A DNA stretch of 49,279 nt from a bacterium (GTDB taxonomy: Bacteria; Actinomycetota; Acidimicrobiia; Spongiisociales; UBA5794): the NCBI GenBank assembly GCA_024228555.1, contig JAAETI010000554.1:1-49279 (forward strand), read 5' to 3'. Every line of letters starts with the position of its first letter. The stretch's first letter is position 1. Under the pieces are notes generated by a model. That model ran no database searches. It had not been told where the DNA came from and saw only the letters and a program-made list of their open reading frames with translations. Below are positions 475 through 13,859 of this stretch, one piece after another. The position numbers and the translations under genes are program-made.

Positions 475-1206
475 ATGAGCAGCATCAATGAGATCCAGGC
501 GCGGGTGCAGGCCATTCAAGCTCGCGTGACGAGTCCCCCGGTCTCGGGTCAGTTCGGCGCGATCTTTCAAGCGCAGATGGCAGCTGCCAATGCCCAGTCT
601 GCCCAGCAGCCGGCACCAACCGCCGCACCGGTCGAGGGCGAGTTTGCGGTGACCCCGCAAGGAATGGCTGCAACACATATTGGCTCATCGGTCGTCACTC
701 TCGGCGTCATGCTTGGGATGACCAGCGGACCGACCTCCGCACCGCCATCACCAACAGTGCTCAGGACGTCGGGCCTCACCGAATACATGGCCGCACACAA
801 CATCGAAGCCCGCAACGGGCGGCTCAGCTCGAGAGAACTCGCCTCAGTCTCGGGAGCATGGAACGGAACCGGCTACCTGCTTCCTCCAGCAGCGGCGGCG
901 TGGGAAGAGATGAGGGTCGCAGCTGCCCGCGACGGTATCGATCTCCAGGCCATCGACCTGTACCGATCGTGGGAGTCACAAAACGGTGCCTACCAGGCGC
1001 ACCTGCGTGGCGACAAGGCTGCCAACGTTCTCCCCCCAGGCAAGAGCGAGCACGGCAACGGCCTCGCCGTCGACCTAACCAATGGAGATCTGGTCGGAGT
1101 CGGAGACCCGGAGTACACGTGGATGAGAACCCATGGTGCCGAGTTTGGCTGGCACCCAATTTCGAACGAGTCATGGCATTGGGAGTTCCGCGGCACCGCT
1201 GGCTAG
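475..1206 (+). CDS. M15 (VanY/D-Ala-D-Ala carboxypeptidase) family metallopeptidase with flagellar-type N-terminus
   Basis: A protein of 243 residues. The C-terminal half (about 110-243) is an M15 peptidase domain: SEHGNGLAVDL supplies the zinc His and Asp, and SWHWEF near the end supplies the HxH motif, so the zinc site looks intact. This family cleaves D-Ala-containing cross-links of peptidoglycan. The N-terminus (MSSINEIQARVQAIQARV, then an Ala/Gln/Pro-rich linker) has no signal peptide. From memory it resembles the start of peptidoglycan hydrolases encoded in actinobacterial flagellar operons, so it may be exported by the flagellar apparatus. That is inference, since the flagellar genes seen here lie 46 kb away. 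No clear ribosome site precedes the ATG. Its TAG stop overlaps the stop of the convergent exporter gene by three bases. Confidence 0.8.
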   Translation: MSSINEIQARVQAIQARVTSPPVSGQFGAIFQAQMAAANAQSAQQPAPTAAPVEGEFAVTPQGMAATHIGSSVVTLGVMLGMTSGPTSAPPSPTVLRTSGLTEYMAAHNIEARNGRLSSRELASVSGAWNGTGYLLPPAAAAWEEMRVAAARDGIDLQAIDLYRSWESQNGAYQAHLRGDKAANVLPPGKSEHGNGLAVDLTNGDLVGVGDPEYTWMRTHGAEFGWHPISNESWHWEFRGTAG

Positions 1207-4200
1207 AGGTCGGCCGCAGTCCCGATTTCCATCCGTTCATCAGCGGCGAGGGCCCGACTGAGAGCGACCACCAGGTTGAATACGTCGGGTTCAGTTGAAC
1301 CGGTCTTACTGGCAAGCAGAATCGTCTCGATAGTCTGCGGTGGCTGCAAAGTCCGCACTGGAAGCGATGAGCCCACCTCAGCCATCGATCGCGGCAGAAC
1401 CATCGTTCCTCCGGTCAGAGCGGCAACACGAAGACCTGTCACGACATCGGCAACCGTGTGGGCCAAGACCGGCGACTTCGCCTCCGCAGCCACCATGGTG
1501 CGCAAGCCGACCTCCGACTCGACATGTGGTCCAGCCACCAGCAAGCCGTGAGCCAACCCGTCGACGGGTGCGATCACTTCCCCGCTGCCCACGATGCCAC
1601 CAACGGCAACAAGATCCTCTTTGACAAGCGGAAGTGACTCCATGTCGGACCGGTCCAGTTCATCGGCTCCCGGCCATTGCACCATCAGACCTAGATCAAG
1701 GTCACCACTTCTGATCAGATCGGCGACGGCCGATCCTGCAACAGCCCGCAAGACAACCGAGCCATCACGCAACTCATTTTCGTACGTAGCCAGCAGATGA
1801 TCCACCACGCCATCGCTCAGATCACGAGCCATGCCGATCCGAATCGGTGTATCAGATGTCAGATCGACAACCCGATGCGGCTGCAACTTCTCCAGATGCT
1901 TCCCTGTCGCAACCACCAGCAGCGATGGCAGCACAAAGAGTGAGGCGACGAGGGCGAGAACGATCATGATTGCCGTCAGGAGACCGTAGGTCGCAAACAT
2001 CGGCATTGGGGCGAACGCCAGGATCCCAAAGCCGGCAAAGGAAGTAACGGCAGACCCGGTGAGTGCGGAGCCGGTGCCGGTTCCCGCCGCGGCGACTGCG
2101 ACCAACGGCGCCGACCCTGACCGCCTCTCTTCGAGGAAGCGCATTGTGAAATGTGTCGAGAAGTCGATCCCGATCCCGACCGATACTGCACCGATAATCG
2201 AGGTGACAACGTTGACAGCGAATCCGGCTTGATACATCAACCCGTACAACCATGTAACAACCAACAGAATCGGGACAACGCTCACCAGGGCATACCGAAA
2301 CGACCGCATAAAGGCAGCCGCAACCACAAAACACGCCAGCACGGCGAGTGGGAGAGCCAGCAACATCGAGCGGCGGATCCCATCGAGCTGATCGTCTCGA
2401 TAAACAGCCGACCCGGTGACGACCACCATGGCATCGGGATCGATCCGGGCCAGCGAACTCTCGAGTTCAGCGGCAAGCGGCTCAAGCGTTTCTCTGGTTC
2501 TGACCACATTCGCTTGGTTGCGGGTATCGGGGATTTGATAGGTCAGCACCGTCGCATATCGAGCCTCATCATCCGAGCGCCACAGCACGGTGCCAACGTC
2601 GTTGGGTGTCCACAACGGATTGCCAGCTGAGTCGGAGACGCCAGCCACCAACGCTTCGTCATAGAAGTCGACAAGCCTGCTGCGCCCTTCGACGCCAACG
2701 TCCTCGAGTAACCCGAGCACTCCAGGGTCGACCCGGACCACCCCATCGTTGTCTCGGGCCAGCGGGCTGTCGTCGACGGCCGCAACGCGGACGGTAAACA
2801 GACGCAGCGCATCAAGCGCCTCAGGTGAAGCAAGATCAGTCTCGACATAAACCTGAGCCGGCTCGCCACCTTGGTCTCCGAGATACTCAGCCGTCTTGTC
2901 GAGGCCAACAACGAAGTCGGAATCCGGGGAGAAGAAATCATTGACGTCAAACGTCACTTCGAGATGCAACGCGCCCCAGAAAGCAACGGCGGTGACGAGG
3001 GTGGCAGCTCCGATGGTTAGCCATGGCCTTGTCGCAAAGCCCGCGACGACCTCCCCAAGCCGCCGCGATCCCTTCCCGGACCGGTGCGCCGCAAAAGCGA
3101 TGCCGGAGGTGCGCTTGGCGACGAGCAGCGGCAGGCCCAACATCACCACTACATAGCCGAGCAACATCGCAAGCCCGAGGGCCTCTGAAACGAACACGAG
3201 AACCAGGACGGTCCCGGTAGCGAAGCCGGCCGCCACCAAGCTGAGGACCATGTCCATCCCACGACCCCAACCGGTGATCGTGCGGCTTCCGAGTTCCCCT
3301 TCGGTCAGTGAAAGCACCATGGGGGTTGCCACGCCCAGGAGGAGGAACGCTGCCACGGTGGCGAGCGCCGCCGCATAGCCAAATTGCACCACGGACTCGA
3401 TTCCTGCGGTTGTGTTCGCAAGAAATGCAGCCGCATCCGACGTAGCGGCGAGCGCCAATGCACCGAAGACTGAGCCCAAGCCGACGACAAAGGCGCGTTG
3501 ACCCACACGACCCCGTCTTGCCTCCTCACGGACCCTGCCGATGCCGTGGAACGCCGAGTCAATACCAAACGAAATCATGCTGATCGGCAGAATGGTGCTG
3601 AGTATCTGATCGCTCTTGAGGCCAATCAGGTTCGCTCCACCCCGCAACCACACCATGAGAATCGCCAGCGCGGCTCCTGCAATCGCCACCGCCCAGTAGG
3701 AACGGAAAGCAATCCCAACGATCAACAGCACGGCAGCGATCGTCAGGCCAACAAATGGCCCAGCTAGTTCACCCTGCTCGGCGGAAGTCAGGTTGACGTC
3801 CGAAGCCGGGGCCCATGCTGCGAGAACCCTGCCATCGCCCGCTATGGCGTCTTTGAGGTCCCTGGCGAACTGCTCCTTTTCAAGACTGTCCGTTCCGATC
3901 GTCACCAGGAAACCGCCCCCACCGAGCTTCTCGTTGTCTGCCGCCACGTTTACGAACAGAGCGGGGCTGTGCCAGGCACCCTCATCGTCTTGGGTTGCCT
4001 GTGCGGCGAGACCCCATTCGGTTGGCGAACTCTGCTGCAGAATCGCCGCAACTACGCCATCTACCTGATCCTGAGAGGCGTCGGCAAGACCCCCCGTCAC
4101 ACCAACGTCACGAAGCAATCGATCGACCGAGTCGGCTATGGACCAGATTCCGTGGACGTCGATGCCGAGGCTCGGGTCACGCACGGTGACCAAACGGTCC

Positions 4201-4538
4201 CCGAACGAATTGTCCTCCCGCATCGCTTGCGAGTTCGTCAACAGGGTGAGTAGGGCGTCTCTTGCCAGCATGTCGCCCTCGTTGGCCTCGACGAGGAGGA
4301 AATAACTGAACACCTCATCGGCGAACCGTTCCGCAACCAACTCCTGGGTGGTCGTGATCTGAGTCACAGGGCTTTGCGAAGCCGTCTCTTCGGGGGCCAA
4401 GAACAGCATCGGGTAGCTCAACGCAACAGTCGCCACCACCAGGGCGGCGATCACCATTCGTGAGTGTTTGGCGATGGTCGCGGCCAGCTTGATCCCCGGC
4501 GATCGTTGCCCTGAACTCAGGCGCGAGTCAGTAGCCAC
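1203..4538 (-). CDS. RND/MMPL-family exporter with a C-terminal LysR-substrate-binding-like domain
   Basis: A protein of 1111 residues from a GTG at 4538, chosen because GGAGGAG lies just upstream; an ATG 42 nt earlier has no ribosome site. The body has the two-fold RND/MMPL layout: a transmembrane helix, a large extracytoplasmic loop (MLARDALLTLL region), a block of five helices, then a second copy of the same arrangement. GIDFSTHFTMRFLEER in the second half is a typical RND helix-4 motif. After the last helix (LFVLPSLLVVATG) about 215 more residues follow. They begin PIRIGMARDLSDGVVDHLL and include GDLDLGLMVQW, PLVKEDLVAVGG and VAALTGGTMVLPRSMAEVG. This order matches the periplasmic-binding-protein fold of LysR regulators, without their DNA-binding helix-turn-helix. 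The substrate is unknown. Exporters of this class move lipids, hopanoids or drugs. Confidence 0.85.
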   Translation of the reverse strand: MATDSRLSSGQRSPGIKLAATIAKHSRMVIAALVVATVALSYPMLFLAPEETASQSPVTQITTTQELVAERFADEVFSYFLLVEANEGDMLARDALLTLLTNSQAMREDNSFGDRLVTVRDPSLGIDVHGIWSIADSVDRLLRDVGVTGGLADASQDQVDGVVAAILQQSSPTEWGLAAQATQDDEGAWHSPALFVNVAADNEKLGGGGFLVTIGTDSLEKEQFARDLKDAIAGDGRVLAAWAPASDVNLTSAEQGELAGPFVGLTIAAVLLIVGIAFRSYWAVAIAGAALAILMVWLRGGANLIGLKSDQILSTILPISMISFGIDSAFHGIGRVREEARRGRVGQRAFVVGLGSVFGALALAATSDAAAFLANTTAGIESVVQFGYAAALATVAAFLLLGVATPMVLSLTEGELGSRTITGWGRGMDMVLSLVAAGFATGTVLVLVFVSEALGLAMLLGYVVVMLGLPLLVAKRTSGIAFAAHRSGKGSRRLGEVVAGFATRPWLTIGAATLVTAVAFWGALHLEVTFDVNDFFSPDSDFVVGLDKTAEYLGDQGGEPAQVYVETDLASPEALDALRLFTVRVAAVDDSPLARDNDGVVRVDPGVLGLLEDVGVEGRSRLVDFYDEALVAGVSDSAGNPLWTPNDVGTVLWRSDDEARYATVLTYQIPDTRNQANVVRTRETLEPLAAELESSLARIDPDAMVVVTGSAVYRDDQLDGIRRSMLLALPLAVLACFVVAAAFMRSFRYALVSVVPILLVVTWLYGLMYQAGFAVNVVTSIIGAVSVGIGIDFSTHFTMRFLEERRSGSAPLVAVAAAGTGTGSALTGSAVTSFAGFGILAFAPMPMFATYGLLTAIMIVLALVASLFVLPSLLVVATGKHLEKLQPHRVVDLTSDTPIRIGMARDLSDGVVDHLLATYENELRDGSVVLRAVAGSAVADLIRSGDLDLGLMVQWPGADELDRSDMESLPLVKEDLVAVGGIVGSGEVIAPVDGLAHGLLVAGPHVESEVGLRTMVAAEAKSPVLAHTVADVVTGLRVAALTGGTMVLPRSMAEVGSSLPVRTLQPPQTIETILLASKTGSTEPDVFNLVVALSRALAADERMEIGTAADL

Positions 4539-4833
4539 GTCGGCTCCTCCGGGTGCCCAACGGGCGCGGCGCATCGGCAAGCGTTGTCAGCTTCACTCGT
4601 AAGACATCGGAGGTTTTCTGACAAACCTTGCACGCTTTGTCCATCACGCTGATAGGTTGTGAGTGTGCAGGATCCGCCAGCGTGTCGGGTCCTACGGAAT
4701 GGTCACCCGGTCCAAGGTGGGAGGGGCCCCACCGCCTCTCCCACCTGACCGGTCACTTCCTTGCATCAACACCTCCCCTCATCATTGATGGTTCTATTCT
4801 GAGGCTCGTTGCTTCGAGCCCCAGGGAGAGTCC
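4539..4833. other. Divergent intergenic region with a large bulged hairpin (4707-4752)
   Basis: This gap separates the RND exporter from the aminotransferase-like gene. It contains a strong inverted repeat. CCGGTC (4707-4712) pairs with GACCGG (4747-4752), and AGGTGGGAG (4715-4723) pairs with CTCCCACCT (4738-4746), leaving a 2-nt bulge and a 14-nt loop. A second small hairpin (GGCTCG/CGAGCC) lies at about 4802-4819, just ahead of the ribosome site AGGGAGAG. The large hairpin sits 80-125 nt upstream of the rightward start codon. It could be a leader structure or an operator. No coding sequence was found. Confidence 0.45.
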
Positions 4834-6063
4834 ATGACCGTCCTCAACACGTCGGCAATTCGCACCCAATTCCCCGCCCTGTGTCGCGAGGAGAACGGCT
4901 CGACGGTTGCCTGGTTTGACGGGCCCAGTGGCAGCCAGGTGCCGCACAGCGTGATCGACGCTATCTCTGAATTTCTGACGAGGGGCGGGTCCAACCACGG
5001 TGGGGCCTTTGCAGCGAGTCGCGACTCGGAAGCAACTCATGAAGGCGCTCGCACTGCCATCGCCGATCTATACGGAACCCGCAAAGACGACTACATCGCA
5101 TTTGGCATGAATATGACGAGTCTCAATTTTGCGCTGAGCAGGGCCCTGTCCTCGTCATGGGGCTCCGGCGACGAGGTTGTCGTCACCCGCCTTGACCATG
5201 ACGCCAATGTCTCACCATGGCTGCGCGCCGCAGCCGACAGCGGGGCCACAGTGAAATGGGTTCCGTTCAACACAGATACCTACCGACTCGACCTCGCCCG
5301 GCTCGCTGATGTCGTTGGGCCGCGAACAAGGCTCGTTGCCATCACTCATGCTTCGAACGCTATCGGCACCATCGTTGATGTAGCAGCCGCCACCCGGATC
5401 GCCCACGATGCCGGAGCGCTCGTGGCGGTGGATGCCGTTCACTACGCACCACACGGCCTCATCGACGTTGCCGCCATCGATTGCGACTTCCTGATCGCCT
5501 CTGCATACAAGTTCTTTGGCCCCCACATCGGTGCGATGGCTGGACGTGGCGCTCTGTTGGAGGAGCTCGACGCTTACAAGGTGCGCCCGTCACCGTCGCG
5601 GGGTCCCGACAAGTGGGAAACCGGTACCCAGAGCTTTGAGGCCCTGGCAGGAGTGGCAGCTGCCGTTGACCACATCGCAGACCTCACAGCAGCAAACGGA
5701 CCCCGACGTGGTCGCATCATCGCCGCCTACACCGCAATCCAGGACCACGCCATCAGCCTCGGCGAGCGTTTCTTGAGGGGGTTGCCCGACACCGCAACCG
5801 TATTCGGCATCACCGACGACCTGACTGCGAGGACACCCACCTTCGCCATTGAGCTGGAGGGCCTCTCTGCCCGACAGCTCGCAACCGAGCTTGGCAATCG
5901 GGGCATCTACGTCACCGACGGCGACTACTACGCAGTCGAGGTGATGAACGCCCTGGACCGCGCCGACGGCGGGCTGGTACGTATCGGTTTCCTGCACTAC
6001 ACCACTGAAGATGAGGTCGACCGCCTGCTCGGCGCCCTTGGAGAACTTGCCGGAAATGCCTGA
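4834..6063 (+). CDS. PLP-dependent class V aminotransferase, SufS-like (VC1184 family)
   Basis: A protein of 409 residues with AGGGAGAG 5 nt before its ATG. The fold-type I PLP site is clear: VAVDAVHYAPH supplies the Asp (D200) and His (H207), and SAYKFFGPH supplies the Schiff-base Lys (K226). Family members resemble cysteine desulfurases. However, the C-terminal region where SufS proteins carry the catalytic Cys (RxGHHCAQP) reads GDYYAVEVMNAL here, with no Cys. Desulfurase activity is therefore doubtful, and another lyase or transaminase reaction is possible. Its stop codon lies inside the start of the adenosine deaminase gene (8-nt overlap), so the two are probably translated together. Confidence 0.85.
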   Translation: MTVLNTSAIRTQFPALCREENGSTVAWFDGPSGSQVPHSVIDAISEFLTRGGSNHGGAFAASRDSEATHEGARTAIADLYGTRKDDYIAFGMNMTSLNFALSRALSSSWGSGDEVVVTRLDHDANVSPWLRAAADSGATVKWVPFNTDTYRLDLARLADVVGPRTRLVAITHASNAIGTIVDVAAATRIAHDAGALVAVDAVHYAPHGLIDVAAIDCDFLIASAYKFFGPHIGAMAGRGALLEELDAYKVRPSPSRGPDKWETGTQSFEALAGVAAAVDHIADLTAANGPRRGRIIAAYTAIQDHAISLGERFLRGLPDTATVFGITDDLTARTPTFAIELEGLSARQLATELGNRGIYVTDGDYYAVEVMNALDRADGGLVRIGFLHYTTEDEVDRLLGALGELAGNA

Positions 6064-8882: not shown

Positions 8883-9341
8883 TCAGATGATCGTCCACTC
8901 GGTCTGGACAACGGCACCATCGTCGCCGGCCAGTTTGCAGGTGAGTCGCACCGAACCGGTCGGGACGTCCTCAAAGGTGAACCGGCCCAGGCTGTCAGAC
9001 AGCGCGGTCCGTGTATCGTCTTCGTGGTGCAGCGTGATCTCGGCCGGTTGCGGCGGTACCAGCTGCCCAACCAACCGACGCGACGTTTCCGAGACGACTA
9101 CCAGCTCGATCTCCACGCCTGGCGTCCTAAAGGTCATCTGACGAGTTGCATCGGAGCTGCGCACGCCAGCCAACTCCTCCGCAGCGGAGTCAAACACAAG
9201 CGCGGCCAACTCGGCGTCGATGGTGCGCCAAGTGAACGTCTCCTTGGCGGCGGTGGTCACAGCCTCCGGCAGTGGGTCGGAGGCGTCCAATGCCGCGGCG
9301 AGCCGGGCCAGGAGCTCTTGGTCCTTCAGTTCATCAGTCAT
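8883..9341 (-). CDS. Small beta-rich partner of the ECF sigma factor (carboxypeptidase-regulatory-like domain)
   Basis: A protein of 152 residues whose ATG overlaps the sigma factor stop by 4 nt. The N-terminal half is helical (DQELLARLAAALDASDPLP, ETFTWRTIDAELAALVFDS). The C-terminal half is beta-strand rich and ends in a motif like the carboxypeptidase regulatory-like/Ig-like domain (DSLGRFTFEDVPTGSVRLTC). There is no transmembrane helix and no HxxxCxxC zinc anti-sigma motif. Its position directly behind an ECF sigma gene makes a role as sigma partner or anti-sigma plausible, but the sequence does not prove it. It belongs to the same locus as the S8 and CHAT proteases. If it restrains the sigma factor, proteolysis would be a natural release mechanism (hypothesis). 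Confidence 0.75.
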   Translation of the reverse strand: MTDELKDQELLARLAAALDASDPLPEAVTTAAKETFTWRTIDAELAALVFDSAAEELAGVRSSDATRQMTFRTPGVEIELVVVSETSRRLVGQLVPPQPAEITLHHEDDTRTALSDSLGRFTFEDVPTGSVRLTCKLAGDDGAVVQTEWTII

Positions 9342-9880
9342 CTTCGCTCCAAGAGCCGTCGCAGCCGGTCGATGCAGCGTGACCTTGTCGGTCCGATACT
9401 GCCGACCGGCATTCCGAGTATTCCCGAGATCGCTTCATAGTCAAGTGGGGGGTCGGTGCAGAGGAGTTCGAGGATTTCCCTGCACTTTGGTGACATCTCA
9501 TCAAAAGCACCCAGGACCTCGCGGAGTTGCTCGTCATCGAGAAGCCGTTCGTCGAGTGGTGGTGCCGTGTCATCGGGAACCTCGATTGAGAACTCCGTCG
9601 GGACCGCCCGCGCCAAGCGGCGTGAGGCCCGAATCGATTCGTTGCGGGCGGTGGTAGCCAACCATGAAGCCAGTCGATCGGGGTCGCGGATCCGATCGCA
9701 ATGCTCGACAAGACGCAGCCAGACGGTCTGGCTGACGTCTGCGGCGGTTGCGGAATCGAAGCGAAACCCGCGGACAACCGACCACACCAAGCGGCCATAT
9801 CTGTCTACGAGTGTGTTCCAAGCCTGCTGGTTGCCTGCCCCCGCAGCAACCAGTAGCTCGGCTACTGGTGTCTCTGTCAT
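9338..9880 (-). CDS. RNA polymerase sigma-70 family factor (ECF type)
   Basis: A protein of 180 residues from the ATG at 9880; a TTG directly before it is a less likely start. Region 2 spans about 14-75 (LVDRYGRLVWSVVRGFRF, then ADVSQTVWLRLVEH, with RLASWLATTARNESIR for the -10 recognition helix). Region 4 spans about 120-178 (MSPKCREILELL, then LDYEAISGILGMPVGSIGP and TRSRCIDRLRRLL), with a helix-turn-helix for -35 binding. Region 1 and region 3 are absent, as usual for ECF factors. It is the first gene of a two-gene operon with the beta-rich partner and is divergent from the S8/CHAT protease operon, which it probably controls. Confidence 0.9.
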   Translation of the reverse strand: MTETPVAELLVAAGAGNQQAWNTLVDRYGRLVWSVVRGFRFDSATAADVSQTVWLRLVEHCDRIRDPDRLASWLATTARNESIRASRRLARAVPTEFSIEVPDDTAPPLDERLLDDEQLREVLGAFDEMSPKCREILELLCTDPPLDYEAISGILGMPVGSIGPTRSRCIDRLRRLLERR

Positions 9881-9959
9881 CAAGGGGAACGATACCTCCG
9901 CTGCCGCTCGTTTCCGTTGAGTTTGTAACCATCACACGCACGGGCGCTCCTTGCTGTCA

Positions 9960-10033
9960 CATATAGGAGCCGCAACTGCGTCGCCTGATACAGCCAATAG
10001 GGTGGACGCGACAACCGCTCGATTGCCTATATG
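9960..10033. promoter_or_regulatory. Paired divergent promoter-like elements between the sigma and protease operons
   Basis: The same two-part element occurs once on each strand. On the plus strand GCGAC (10008-10012) is followed after 13 nt by CCTATATG (10026-10033), which lies 41 nt before the protease ATG. On the minus strand GCGAC (9984-9980) is followed after 12 nt by CCTATATG (9967-9960), 79 nt before the sigma ATG. A shared two-box element facing both operons is what an autoregulating ECF factor would leave. The assignment of the boxes to -35 and -10 is inference. Confidence 0.45.
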
Positions 10034-10074
10034 ATCCAAGTGAACGGCGGCGACAGACACTGCGGAGGGTGACG

Positions 10075-11307
10075 ATGGGTGCATTCGAAGGGACCGGCGA
10101 TCTGCTCAAGGGTGGGCGTGGAGCAACTATCGGCGGGATCGGGATCGCACATAGCGACTGCGGTAGCAACTACTACTTCCAGAAAGGCGTGCTGATCGTT
10201 CCCGAGGAAGCTCTCGACAAACTCCTCCAGGCGCTGGGACGTCTCGGCCTCGGACAGAAGGACGCTCGGATCGAACCCATTGAGGGCACCGGCATGGTCC
10301 AGGTGAGGATTCGAAGCAGACGACCGATCGACCGACTGATCGAGGAACTCGGGGGGACGCTCCCGGTCGAACCCAGCTATGTCCTATTACTGTCGATGCA
10401 CATCCAGGGTCTGGGTGCCAGACGGCCCGTGCCCGCTCCGCCAAACGTGGTTCCGCGCAACCCACTACGCGGCAAAGGCAAGAACGTCAACATAGGGGTC
10501 GTCGACCTTGGTTTCTTCGACCCGGCAAAGGCCGGCCATCCGCGTTGGGCCACTAGGGACGTCCTTTTGGACCAGACCATGAGTCTGCCGGACCCCAACA
10601 TCACTCACCTTCCGTTCGTCGGCCACGGCAACGCAATCATCGGGATCCTGAAGCAGCTTGCACCGGCTTCTACCGTTTGCACCAGCACTATCGAATCGCA
10701 ACCAAGCGACACCCCTGGGGGGACCACCGATCGACGCCTCGCTGAGGCCATCCAACGGCTGCTGAGCAGGAATCGGATCCACATTCTTGTTGTGCCGTTC
10801 GGCGGATCGACCCGGCACGGAGCGATGCCAATCACCGAAAGAGTTCTGGAGCCCTATCTTGGGTCGACTCTCGTCGTCGCTTCGGCAGGTAACGACGGAT
10901 TGGACCCGACCCTCTATCCGGCAACAGACCCTGACATTGTTGGGGCCGGTGCGTGGAAGCGAAAGGCAGCCGACCTTGGATGGCTTGGCAAAGCGTGCAG
11001 CACAGTGGCCTCGCCAGCCAACGCCATTGGTTCATTGGCGCTAGCCGACTGGTCCAACAAGGGTCTATCTGTGCAACTGAGTGCGGCAGGGGAACATGTT
11101 CCCGCTCCGTTTGTCGAAGCAAGTCTCAAGATTCGGTCGGGGGCTCAGGACAAACCGGCAGGATTGCGTCGCGCCAAGTTCGATGGCTGGGGCTTGTTTA
11201 CCGGCACCTCATTCTCAGCGGCTGTCGTGGCTGGATGCATCGCCGGTAAGGTCGGCGGGGATTCCCCTCCGACACCAGAAGTTCTCGGTGCCGCCGTTCT
11301 GCGATGA
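10075..11307 (+). CDS. Subtilisin-like serine protease (S8 family), predicted cytoplasmic
   Basis: A protein of 410 residues; the ATG at 10075 has GGAGG 6 nt upstream and is preferred to the GTG at 10069. The S8 catalytic set is complete: Asp144 in GVVDLGFF, His184 in VGHGNAI, the oxyanion Asn273 in ASAGNDG, and Ser379 in GTSFSAAVVAG. There is no signal peptide or membrane helix, which is unusual for subtilases and implies action inside the cell. The first about 130 residues (for example VLIVPEEALDKLLQALGRL and VRIRSRRPIDRLIEELGG) look like a propeptide or regulatory domain. The gene is coupled by ATGA to the TPR-CHAT gene and lies opposite an ECF sigma operon. Likely substrates are other products of the locus, but none is demonstrated. 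Confidence 0.88.
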   Translation: MGAFEGTGDLLKGGRGATIGGIGIAHSDCGSNYYFQKGVLIVPEEALDKLLQALGRLGLGQKDARIEPIEGTGMVQVRIRSRRPIDRLIEELGGTLPVEPSYVLLLSMHIQGLGARRPVPAPPNVVPRNPLRGKGKNVNIGVVDLGFFDPAKAGHPRWATRDVLLDQTMSLPDPNITHLPFVGHGNAIIGILKQLAPASTVCTSTIESQPSDTPGGTTDRRLAEAIQRLLSRNRIHILVVPFGGSTRHGAMPITERVLEPYLGSTLVVASAGNDGLDPTLYPATDPDIVGAGAWKRKAADLGWLGKACSTVASPANAIGSLALADWSNKGLSVQLSAAGEHVPAPFVEASLKIRSGAQDKPAGLRRAKFDGWGLFTGTSFSAAVVAGCIAGKVGGDSPPTPEVLGAAVLR

Positions 11308-13859
11308 CCGACAGGCTCCTTGAAGAGGCCGCCGCTGCGGTGGCGATGGCCAGGGAGGATCCTCATTCGGCGCTGCAACTGACCGAGCGAGTTATCGCTG
11401 CGAGCACAGACGATGACACTTTGGCGACCGCACACTTTGCGTGTGGTCTGGCCCATCGAGCTCTTGCGAACGGGGCTGAGTCGACGAAACACCTCGAAAT
11501 AGCCGGTTCTAGCGTGACCCCGCACACCGAGTTGCGCGGGCAAATCCTTCGCTCTCTTGCTTTCAACTATGCACAATCGGGGCGCAACGACCTCGCCGAC
11601 GCCACTATCGAAGAGTCGATAGCGCTCTTGATCGGGCACGAGCAGGACCTCAGTCGGGTTCAACACACCTATATCCTCATGATGCGAGGAGATCTTCAGG
11701 GTGCGCTGCCGGTACTGGACCAGGCAATCGAGTCCTTTGCAGCTAGCGGAGACGATGGGCACCTCGAGTTGCTCTACGGCAACCGAGCGCTCATCCACTT
11801 GGAGTCTGGCGACGCCGACATGGCGTTGCGCGATCTAGAGCGCAGGTACGAGATAGCGATGCGACTTGACCATCCAGTCTCTGCAGCTGACGCCGCGCTA
11901 CACCTCAGCCAGGCGTTGGGCTGGCTCGACGACATTCCCGGAGCAATGAAATGGCATGATCGATCCACAGCGCTGCGGGAATCGACCGGTGTCGAAAACC
12001 CAATCGCTGAGGCAGAACATGCATACCTCCTCATCCAGGCCCGGTTAATCCGGGAGGCCGAAGAGCTTCTGGTCTCCTGGATCCCCCGCCTTGAGGACGC
12101 GGGCGACCGAGCGGTCGTCGGTCAGGCGCATCTCCAACTTGCCGAAGTGCTGTTAGCCCGCGGTGCGTTCAAGGAGGCAGCAGAACAGGTTGCTCTGGCT
12201 CATGAGGCCACCCCTCCCGATGGACGCTACCGTTTCGATGTTGCCGCGGCTGGCCACAAGGTTCGAATCGCATTGGGCGACCTGACCCCTGCACTGCTCA
12301 AGTCCATGCTGAACACAGCCTCCGACATGGAGGCGAACGGCGAACGACACACTGCCGCTTCGGAACGGTTCCGGGCGGTCGATGTCGCACTCGCCATTGG
12401 CAACGTCTCCGCTGCCGCCAGCATGTGCGACGAGGCCGCCGCCATCGTCCGCTCCGGCCCGTTGTGGCTCCAGATCCAAGCGTGGACCGCACTTGCCAAG
12501 GTTCGCAAGGCAGCGGGAAATCGCCGCGGTGCGGCCGCCGCGGCGCGGGCTGGCTTTGGCCGCCTCGACGAATACCGCGGCGGTATCGGTGCGGCCGACC
12601 TCCGTATCCACGCCTCGGAGCTGGGCACCCAGCTCGCCGGTATTGGAATCGAACTGGCGCTCGAATCACGATCGGTTCACCGCATCTTTGACTGGTCGGA
12701 GAGACTCCGTACCGCATCAATGAGCAGCAGCAAGGACTCTGCACCAAACCCTGCGATTGGCGCTGCCTTGGTCCAGCTGCGCCACGCCACAGCGCGGCTA
12801 CGTAGCGCCAGCGGAGACCGGATACCGGCCCTACGTCGAGAGGCTGCTACCTGCGAGCGTGAGGTGCGACAGCTGGCGAGACAGGCCAGGGCATCACGTC
12901 GCACCTTCGCAACTCCCCGCCTGGCCGACATCCAAGCTCAGTTGAGTCAGCGGACACTTGTCGAGTTCGTGGAGACATCGGGACAAGTCGGAGCCATCAT
13001 TGCTACCAGCGAAACAGCCGGGTGGATCGACCTGGACGAGTCGCCACAGGCTCGTGAGTTGCTCGATCACCTTCGGTTTGCAGCAGAGCGAATCGCCCGG
13101 CCTTCAACCAGTGATGCCTCCCGAACGGCTGCGCTCGAGTCCGTGAGTCAGTTAGTCGGCCAGATCCGCGATCAGCTCATCGACCCATTGGAGATCGACA
13201 CCAATCGGGCGGTGGTCGTCCCCAGCACCGTTCTCCATGGGGTCCCCTGGGGACTGGTCCTCGACATCCCGGTTGAGGTTGCTCCGTCGGCGACTGTGTG
13301 GCTGGCCTCTCGTACGGCACCTCCTTCGTCACCGAGCACCCTCATAGTCCACGGTCCCGGCCTTGAACATGCCACAACCGAAGTCAATGAGATCAAGGCA
13401 ATCGCGGGAGGCACAGTCGCTTCAACGGTGCCCGAAACACTAGAGATGCTGTCAGGGGTGACCCTCGCCCACTTCGCTTGCCACGCCCGGCCCCGCCTGG
13501 ACAGCCCGATGTTCAGCAGCCTTGTGCTGGACGATGGCGAGCTGACGCTGTACGACATCGAAAGACTGCCGCAAGTCCCCAGCACGGTCGTTCTGGCCGC
13601 CTGCGACGGCGGGAGCGCCGTCATGGCCTCCGGGGACGAGGTACTCGGCCTCGCCAACGCATTTCTCAGCCTTGGCTCAACAACCGTCGTAGCTCCGCTG
13701 TTCACGGTGTCTGACGAGGCGACCGCATCGGTGATGCGATCAGTCCACCGCTCGCTGGCGGCCGGAAACGATGCAGCCACTGCCCTGCTTGCGGCCCGGC
13801 AAACGCCAGACGCGTTGATCGCTTTCACCGCGGGATCATTCGCCTGTTTCGGCGCATAG
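11304..13859 (+). CDS. TPR-repeat protein with C-terminal CHAT (caspase-like) protease domain
   Basis: A protein of 851 residues starting inside the S8 stop (ATGA). Residues about 1-430 are alpha-helical TPR-like repeats with many paired A-L-x-x-A motifs (ALQLTERVIAAS, ADAALHLSQALGWLDD). Residues about 540-851 form a CHAT domain. Its caspase-fold dyad is visible: His727 in HFACHARP and Cys767 in LAACDGG, followed by GDEVLGLANAFLSLGSTTVVAPL. CHAT proteins are cysteine proteases often activated by a partner that senses a signal, and some act in antiphage or cell-death circuits. Here the TPR half probably serves as the sensing or docking module. Co-expression with a subtilase and a dedicated sigma factor suggests a regulated proteolytic cascade (inference). 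Confidence 0.88.
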   Translation: MTDRLLEEAAAAVAMAREDPHSALQLTERVIAASTDDDTLATAHFACGLAHRALANGAESTKHLEIAGSSVTPHTELRGQILRSLAFNYAQSGRNDLADATIEESIALLIGHEQDLSRVQHTYILMMRGDLQGALPVLDQAIESFAASGDDGHLELLYGNRALIHLESGDADMALRDLERRYEIAMRLDHPVSAADAALHLSQALGWLDDIPGAMKWHDRSTALRESTGVENPIAEAEHAYLLIQARLIREAEELLVSWIPRLEDAGDRAVVGQAHLQLAEVLLARGAFKEAAEQVALAHEATPPDGRYRFDVAAAGHKVRIALGDLTPALLKSMLNTASDMEANGERHTAASERFRAVDVALAIGNVSAAASMCDEAAAIVRSGPLWLQIQAWTALAKVRKAAGNRRGAAAAARAGFGRLDEYRGGIGAADLRIHASELGTQLAGIGIELALESRSVHRIFDWSERLRTASMSSSKDSAPNPAIGAALVQLRHATARLRSASGDRIPALRREAATCEREVRQLARQARASRRTFATPRLADIQAQLSQRTLVEFVETSGQVGAIIATSETAGWIDLDESPQARELLDHLRFAAERIARPSTSDASRTAALESVSQLVGQIRDQLIDPLEIDTNRAVVVPSTVLHGVPWGLVLDIPVEVAPSATVWLASRTAPPSSPSTLIVHGPGLEHATTEVNEIKAIAGGTVASTVPETLEMLSGVTLAHFACHARPRLDSPMFSSLVLDDGELTLYDIERLPQVPSTVVLAACDGGSAVMASGDEVLGLANAFLSLGSTTVVAPLFTVSDEATASVMRSVHRSLAAGNDAATALLAARQTPDALIAFTAGSFACFGA

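Follow-up and report, generated by a model that had tools for sequence, protein, structure and literature searches.

The window, as we call the whole 49,279-nucleotide stretch of DNA analysed here, carries on its minus strand a gene of 1125 codons that reads from 4580 to 1203, uninterrupted by stops or frameshifts, and that encodes an RND/MMPL exporter joined to a LysR-type effector-binding domain. Its 3' end meets that of a convergent gene, and a divergent gene lies upstream. The features of the locus, in window coordinates, are these:

475..1206, plus strand: VanY-type D-Ala-D-Ala carboxypeptidase gene, convergent with the fused gene and overlapping its end by 4 bases
1203..4580, minus strand: gene for the RND/MMPL exporter with the LysR-type effector-binding domain, 1125 amino acids; the TTG start, as listed, is putative
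1257..1847, minus strand: LysR substrate/effector-binding domain, residues 912-1108 (PF03466, hhalign, Foldseek)
1848..1895, minus strand: linker of 16 residues from exporter core to effector domain, with no helix-turn-helix (Pfam, hydropathy)
1896..4502, minus strand: RND/MMPL/SSD exporter core, residues 27-895, with two MMPL halves and large extracytoplasmic loops (Pfam MMPL, AlphaFold2, Foldseek)
2163..2165, minus strand: Asp806 in helix 10, the second proton-relay Asp, an invariant alignment column
3117..3248, minus strand: extra membrane helix pair, residues 445-488, between helices 6 and 7 (hydropathy and model)
3558..3560, minus strand: Asp341 in helix 4, where MmpL-type transporters have their proton-relay Asp, a nearly invariant alignment column
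4834..6063, plus strand: gene for a cysteine desulfurase-like class V aminotransferase (TIGR01976), divergent from the fused gene

At the edge of the window, a minus-strand gene for a secreted S-layer homology protein is cut short (3-359); a similar gene occupies the same place in G002, a genome of the same genus. Further along, positions 8883-13859 hold in tandem an ECF-type sigma factor, a small protein bearing a carboxypeptidase-regulatory-like domain, an S8 subtilase and a TPR-CHAT protein that is possibly a caspase-like protease (Pfam Sigma70_r2, Peptidase_S8 and CHAT).

The exporter core

Pfam MMPL (PF03176, E 1.8e-21) matches the fused protein in two stretches, revealing two MMPL/SSD-type membrane halves, and the sterol-sensing domain profile matches with E 5.6e-4, just below its cut-off. 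A full-length AlphaFold2 model built from 28 sequences reached a mean pLDDT of 78, with most of the core at 85-95 and with high confidence in the loops between helices 1-2 and 7-8, which measure 210 and 200 residues. The best Foldseek matches of the core model were MmpL5, MmpL4, NPC1L1, NPC1 and Patched. This likeness places the protein in the structural class whose members transport lipids, sterols and further hydrophobic compounds, and export of a hydrophobic cargo is predicted. The protein scored below the cut-off of every NCBIfam model searched, including that of HAE3 (TIGR00921), where it gained 117.6 bits against a curated cut-off of 351.9. Both proton-relay aspartates are intact, their conservation having been judged in an alignment of 28 homologues.

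Hydropathy and the model together give 14 membrane helices, namely the 12 canonical ones and the hairpin at residues 445-488, which also occurs in most of the unfused relatives examined. Since the number of helices is even, both termini should face the cytoplasm. The predicted topology thus places the tail in the cytoplasm, in agreement with the earlier note, which had regarded RND C-termini as cytoplasmic.

The C-terminal tail

Residues 912-1108 align with positions 7-204 of the 209-position LysR_substrate profile (PF03466), with E 1.4e-9 in a search with the whole protein and 3.6e-11 with the tail alone (43.3 bits, cut-off 28). For comparison we assembled the effector domains of 30 LysR regulators from the same order as the window genome. 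When the tails of the window protein and of G002 (described below) were aligned to this set with hhalign, the match was collinear (12-201 versus 2-195), with probability 95 and E 4e-8. The same two tails matched the helix-turn-helix half of LysR-type transcriptional regulators with a probability of 0.1, and ModA-type binding proteins, whose broad fold class is common with LysR effector domains, with a probability of 1.7. A model of the same-order LysR effector domains gave the window tail 20 bits, the maximum for 200 shuffled sequences being 6.4. Searches of the PDB by sequence, either with the window tail alone or with a profile of seven related domains, returned no match.

The DNA-binding half of a LysR regulator is missing. 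A LysR helix-turn-helix takes up about 60 residues and is accompanied by a linker helix; the exporter ends near residue 895 and the tail starts within 16 residues, which leaves no room for these elements. A Pfam search of the fused protein detected no helix-turn-helix domain. The earlier note had described just such an exporter, fused to a LysR-type ligand-binding domain and devoid of a helix-turn-helix, and both parts of this description hold. All three tail motifs that it quoted are present, and its coordinates, 1203-1860, were right; the residue numbers that it gave, 895-1111, were slightly off. Its further proposal, that the domain might sense the substrate of the pump or a metabolite and gate export, is plausible.

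Structure prediction contributed less. AlphaFold2 modelled the tail with a pLDDT of 46 from only five aligned sequences, and the same region of the full-length model had values of about 30-60; these low values stem from the scarcity of related tails (3-5 for the alignment). Nearly all of the 50 best Foldseek matches of this weak model were nevertheless LysR effector domains, among them those of RipR, ITCR, OxyR2, CatM and CynR, with a best E of about 8e-4 but a TM-score of only about 0.27. With structure prediction of such low confidence, sequence is the basis for assigning the tail as LysR-type; a two-lobed PBP type 2 fold is likely.

Distribution of the fusion and of free domains

Homologues were sought in 138 genomes of the order and, by a peptide-pattern scan, in 84,980 species represented by one genome each; together these searches yielded about 60 homologous exporters. 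In four of these the reading frame continues for 228-235 residues past the exporter: the window protein and those of G028 (JALVQZ010000088.1), G011 and G021 (DRQR01000013.1). The remainder stop near residue ~893, with at most about 55 residues of tail. This holds also for very long exporter frames of up to 1260 amino acids, which were considered as further fusions and rejected, as none has a tail of over about 55 residues. Two exporter paralogues in the window genome lack a LysR-type tail. The fused exporters come from one family of genomes and represent three genera. They are monophyletic in the exporter tree (support 1.0), so that a single fusion event, in the ancestor of the four-genome clade, is most likely. 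Simple comparison with the window tail retrieves those of G028 and G011 (E 1e-7 and 4e-6), and profile comparison matches it to the fused tails of all three relatives (probability 96). A domain-alignment search through 395 genomes from the class and 396 from the phylum added no fusion among the best six candidates per genome; its lone extra match in the phylum was an ordinary LysR-type regulator of 313 residues.

Thus, the architecture that the earlier note had suggested seeking elsewhere exists in three further genomes. The note had also considered that a sequencing error might have joined two genes. The window does come from a fragmented draft of 1027 contigs, but the same in-frame junction recurs in three independent assemblies, and the G+C content by codon position is alike in exporter core and tail and continuous across the junction. 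An assembly or sequencing artefact is therefore extremely improbable. The exporter itself is of a known kind; its union with a LysR-type domain is real, conserved and unusual. Our searches of the openly licensed literature found no RND-LysR fusion, although such absence is weak evidence.

In G002 the exporter is gone, and it must be dispensable there. The VanY and aminotransferase genes are in place, and between them lies a relic of the LysR-type domain, an open frame without a clear start that corresponds to the last ~180 residues of the domain at 51 percent identity. The three other genomes with a fused exporter also encode a free LysR-type domain lacking a helix-turn-helix. The relic and the free domains, each in the coordinates of its own locus, are located as follows:

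L002 1173-1715, minus strand: relic of the LysR-type domain in G002
L006 9318-10022, plus strand: free LysR-type effector domain
L039 5127-5831, minus strand: free LysR-type effector domain, G011
L009 11621-12349, plus strand: free LysR-type effector domain

In G011 and G028 the free domain follows on the same strand, starting 59-60 bases after the fused gene's stop codon; its counterpart in G021 is 3.8 kb downstream of the fused gene. The free domains are homologous to one another, with identities of 90 and 52 percent, and profile comparison shows them to be homologous to the window tail as well (probability 95). With PF03466 they score 34.6, 30.7 and 25.7 bits, the last value falling just under the cut-off. 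In these three genomes the fused tails show no match to PF03466 at all and have lost the LysR signature, the LPRS/MPRT motif for instance being gone; their probable membership in the LysR family derives from their homology to the tail of the window protein. For G028 compared with G011, dN/dS amounts to 0.19 in the exporter core, 0.37 in the fused tail and 0.17 in the free domain. Where a free domain is present, it is therefore the free copy that is conserved and LysR-like, and the fused tail has diverged. In the window genome we detected no free partner, and the fused tail is canonical. This reciprocal pattern would be accounted for by a division of labour after duplication. The free domains and the divergence of the fused tails beside them lay outside the sequence on which the earlier note was based.

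Frames of ~250 amino acids in G001, G004 and G044 were considered as further free domains and set aside; they match PF03466, yet, judged by eye, bear a lipoprotein-like signal and ModA-type motifs. A candidate in G095 is a similar lipoprotein-like binding protein. In G011, the free domain adjoins a gene for a Rieske domain fused to an FMN-binding glutamate synthase region (L039 3475-5100).

The neighbours of the window gene differ from those of the fused genes in G028, G011 and G021, where an AMP-binding acyl-CoA ligase and a GPH-type transporter are encoded divergently beside the fused gene; G011 and G021 also have a YbgC-type thioesterase gene nearby. Because of this company, acyl or aryl acids suggest themselves as cargo or ligand in these three genomes.

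Possible roles of the tail

We see about an even chance that the tail works as a ligand sensor in the cytoplasm, adjusting export by allostery, and that this sensor is divided over two chains in the relatives. A proton-driven RND/MMPL exporter would carry at its cytoplasmic C-terminus a LysR-type domain able to bind a small cytoplasmic molecule, perhaps the cargo of the pump, a precursor of the cargo or a metabolite of a CoA pathway. The tail would close around its ligand and dimerise with another such domain, and the dimerised tail might then alter the conformational cycle or the assembly of the pump, letting export track the level of the metabolite without transcription. Effector domains of LysR regulators dimerise, so a free domain could also pair with a fused tail. 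In G011, G028 and G021, the free domain retains the signature of a ligand-binding domain, and the fused tail would serve as its docking half. In its most specific form, which we advance tentatively and consider possible rather than probable, the exporter is ligand-gated through a LysR effector domain and the sensor of the sister lineages is a heterodimer of a signature-less fused half and a ligand-competent free half whose gene lies beside that of the exporter.

A tail that has lost ligand binding and acts as a docking or oligomerisation module, its LysR dimer surface assembling the pump or recruiting the free domain or an enzyme, would explain why the fused tails of the three relatives have lost the LysR signature and yet are constrained (dN/dS 0.37), and why a potential partner is encoded next door; a cytoplasmic protein, AcpM, is known to dock on MmpL5 (PMC11633376). 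The window tail, however, has a canonical effector-domain sequence from end to end and no detectable partner in its genome, and signature loss in the other tails need not imply a docking role. We regard this alternative as unlikely, albeit worth retaining. The same loss of signature could be read as decay of an evolutionary passenger, a functionless gene remnant, as could the faster evolution of the tail relative to the core and the relic left in G002 after loss of the exporter. Yet three genera have kept about 230 residues in frame, dN/dS is below 1, the window tail has a canonical sequence, and even the G002 relic is still open at 51 percent identity; a mere passenger is thus quite improbable.

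It is also conceivable that the tail picks up cytoplasmic cargo and passes it to the pump, in the manner of a fused cytoplasmic substrate-binding protein. Capture is what the type 2 periplasmic-binding-protein fold class does elsewhere, and an acyl-CoA ligase gene adjoins the fused gene in G028, G011 and G021. In contrast, LysR effector domains act in sensing, mostly of small polar or aromatic acids, and MMPL exporters are thought to take up their cargo from the side of the membrane or the periplasm. Direct capture of the cargo therefore seems to us rather improbable.

Control of RND and MmpL-type exporters is generally attributed to transcription, partner proteins and phosphorylation. If the proposed sensing role of the tail is correct, a fused metabolite-binding domain would provide direct post-translational control of such exporters, and the sensor of a transcription factor would have been reused as the sensor of a transporter. 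The two-chain version in the relatives would make gating by an effector-domain heterodimer directly testable. The tail would also offer a natural route to the identity of the cargo, because what it binds may be that cargo or a precursor of it.

Channels and carriers with fused cytoplasmic CBS, ACT or RCK ligand sensors exist, and they resemble the protein described here in design, a transporter whose cytoplasmic end carries a ligand-binding domain; the domain family is a different one, and here the transporter is an RND exporter. With LysR-type transcriptional regulators the tail has in common a full-length effector domain (PF03466), but it lacks the helix-turn-helix and is attached to a transporter, and is presumably not a transcription factor. 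The MMPL/RND lipid exporters (MmpL3, MmpL4, MmpL5 and HpnN; HAE3) share with the fused protein the two MMPL halves, the large extracytoplasmic loops and the proton-relay aspartates, and differ from it in having 12 rather than 14 membrane helices and in lacking a LysR effector domain as the C-terminal domain. Among the nearest precedents for the tail are the sizeable cytoplasmic C-terminal domains borne by MmpL3 and MmpL11 (PMC6463170). Another is the acyl carrier protein AcpM, a soluble cytoplasmic partner of an MmpL-type exporter, MmpL5 (PMC11633376); AcpM, however, is a separate chain unrelated to LysR, whereas the domain described here is either fused to the exporter or is a free domain of the LysR type.
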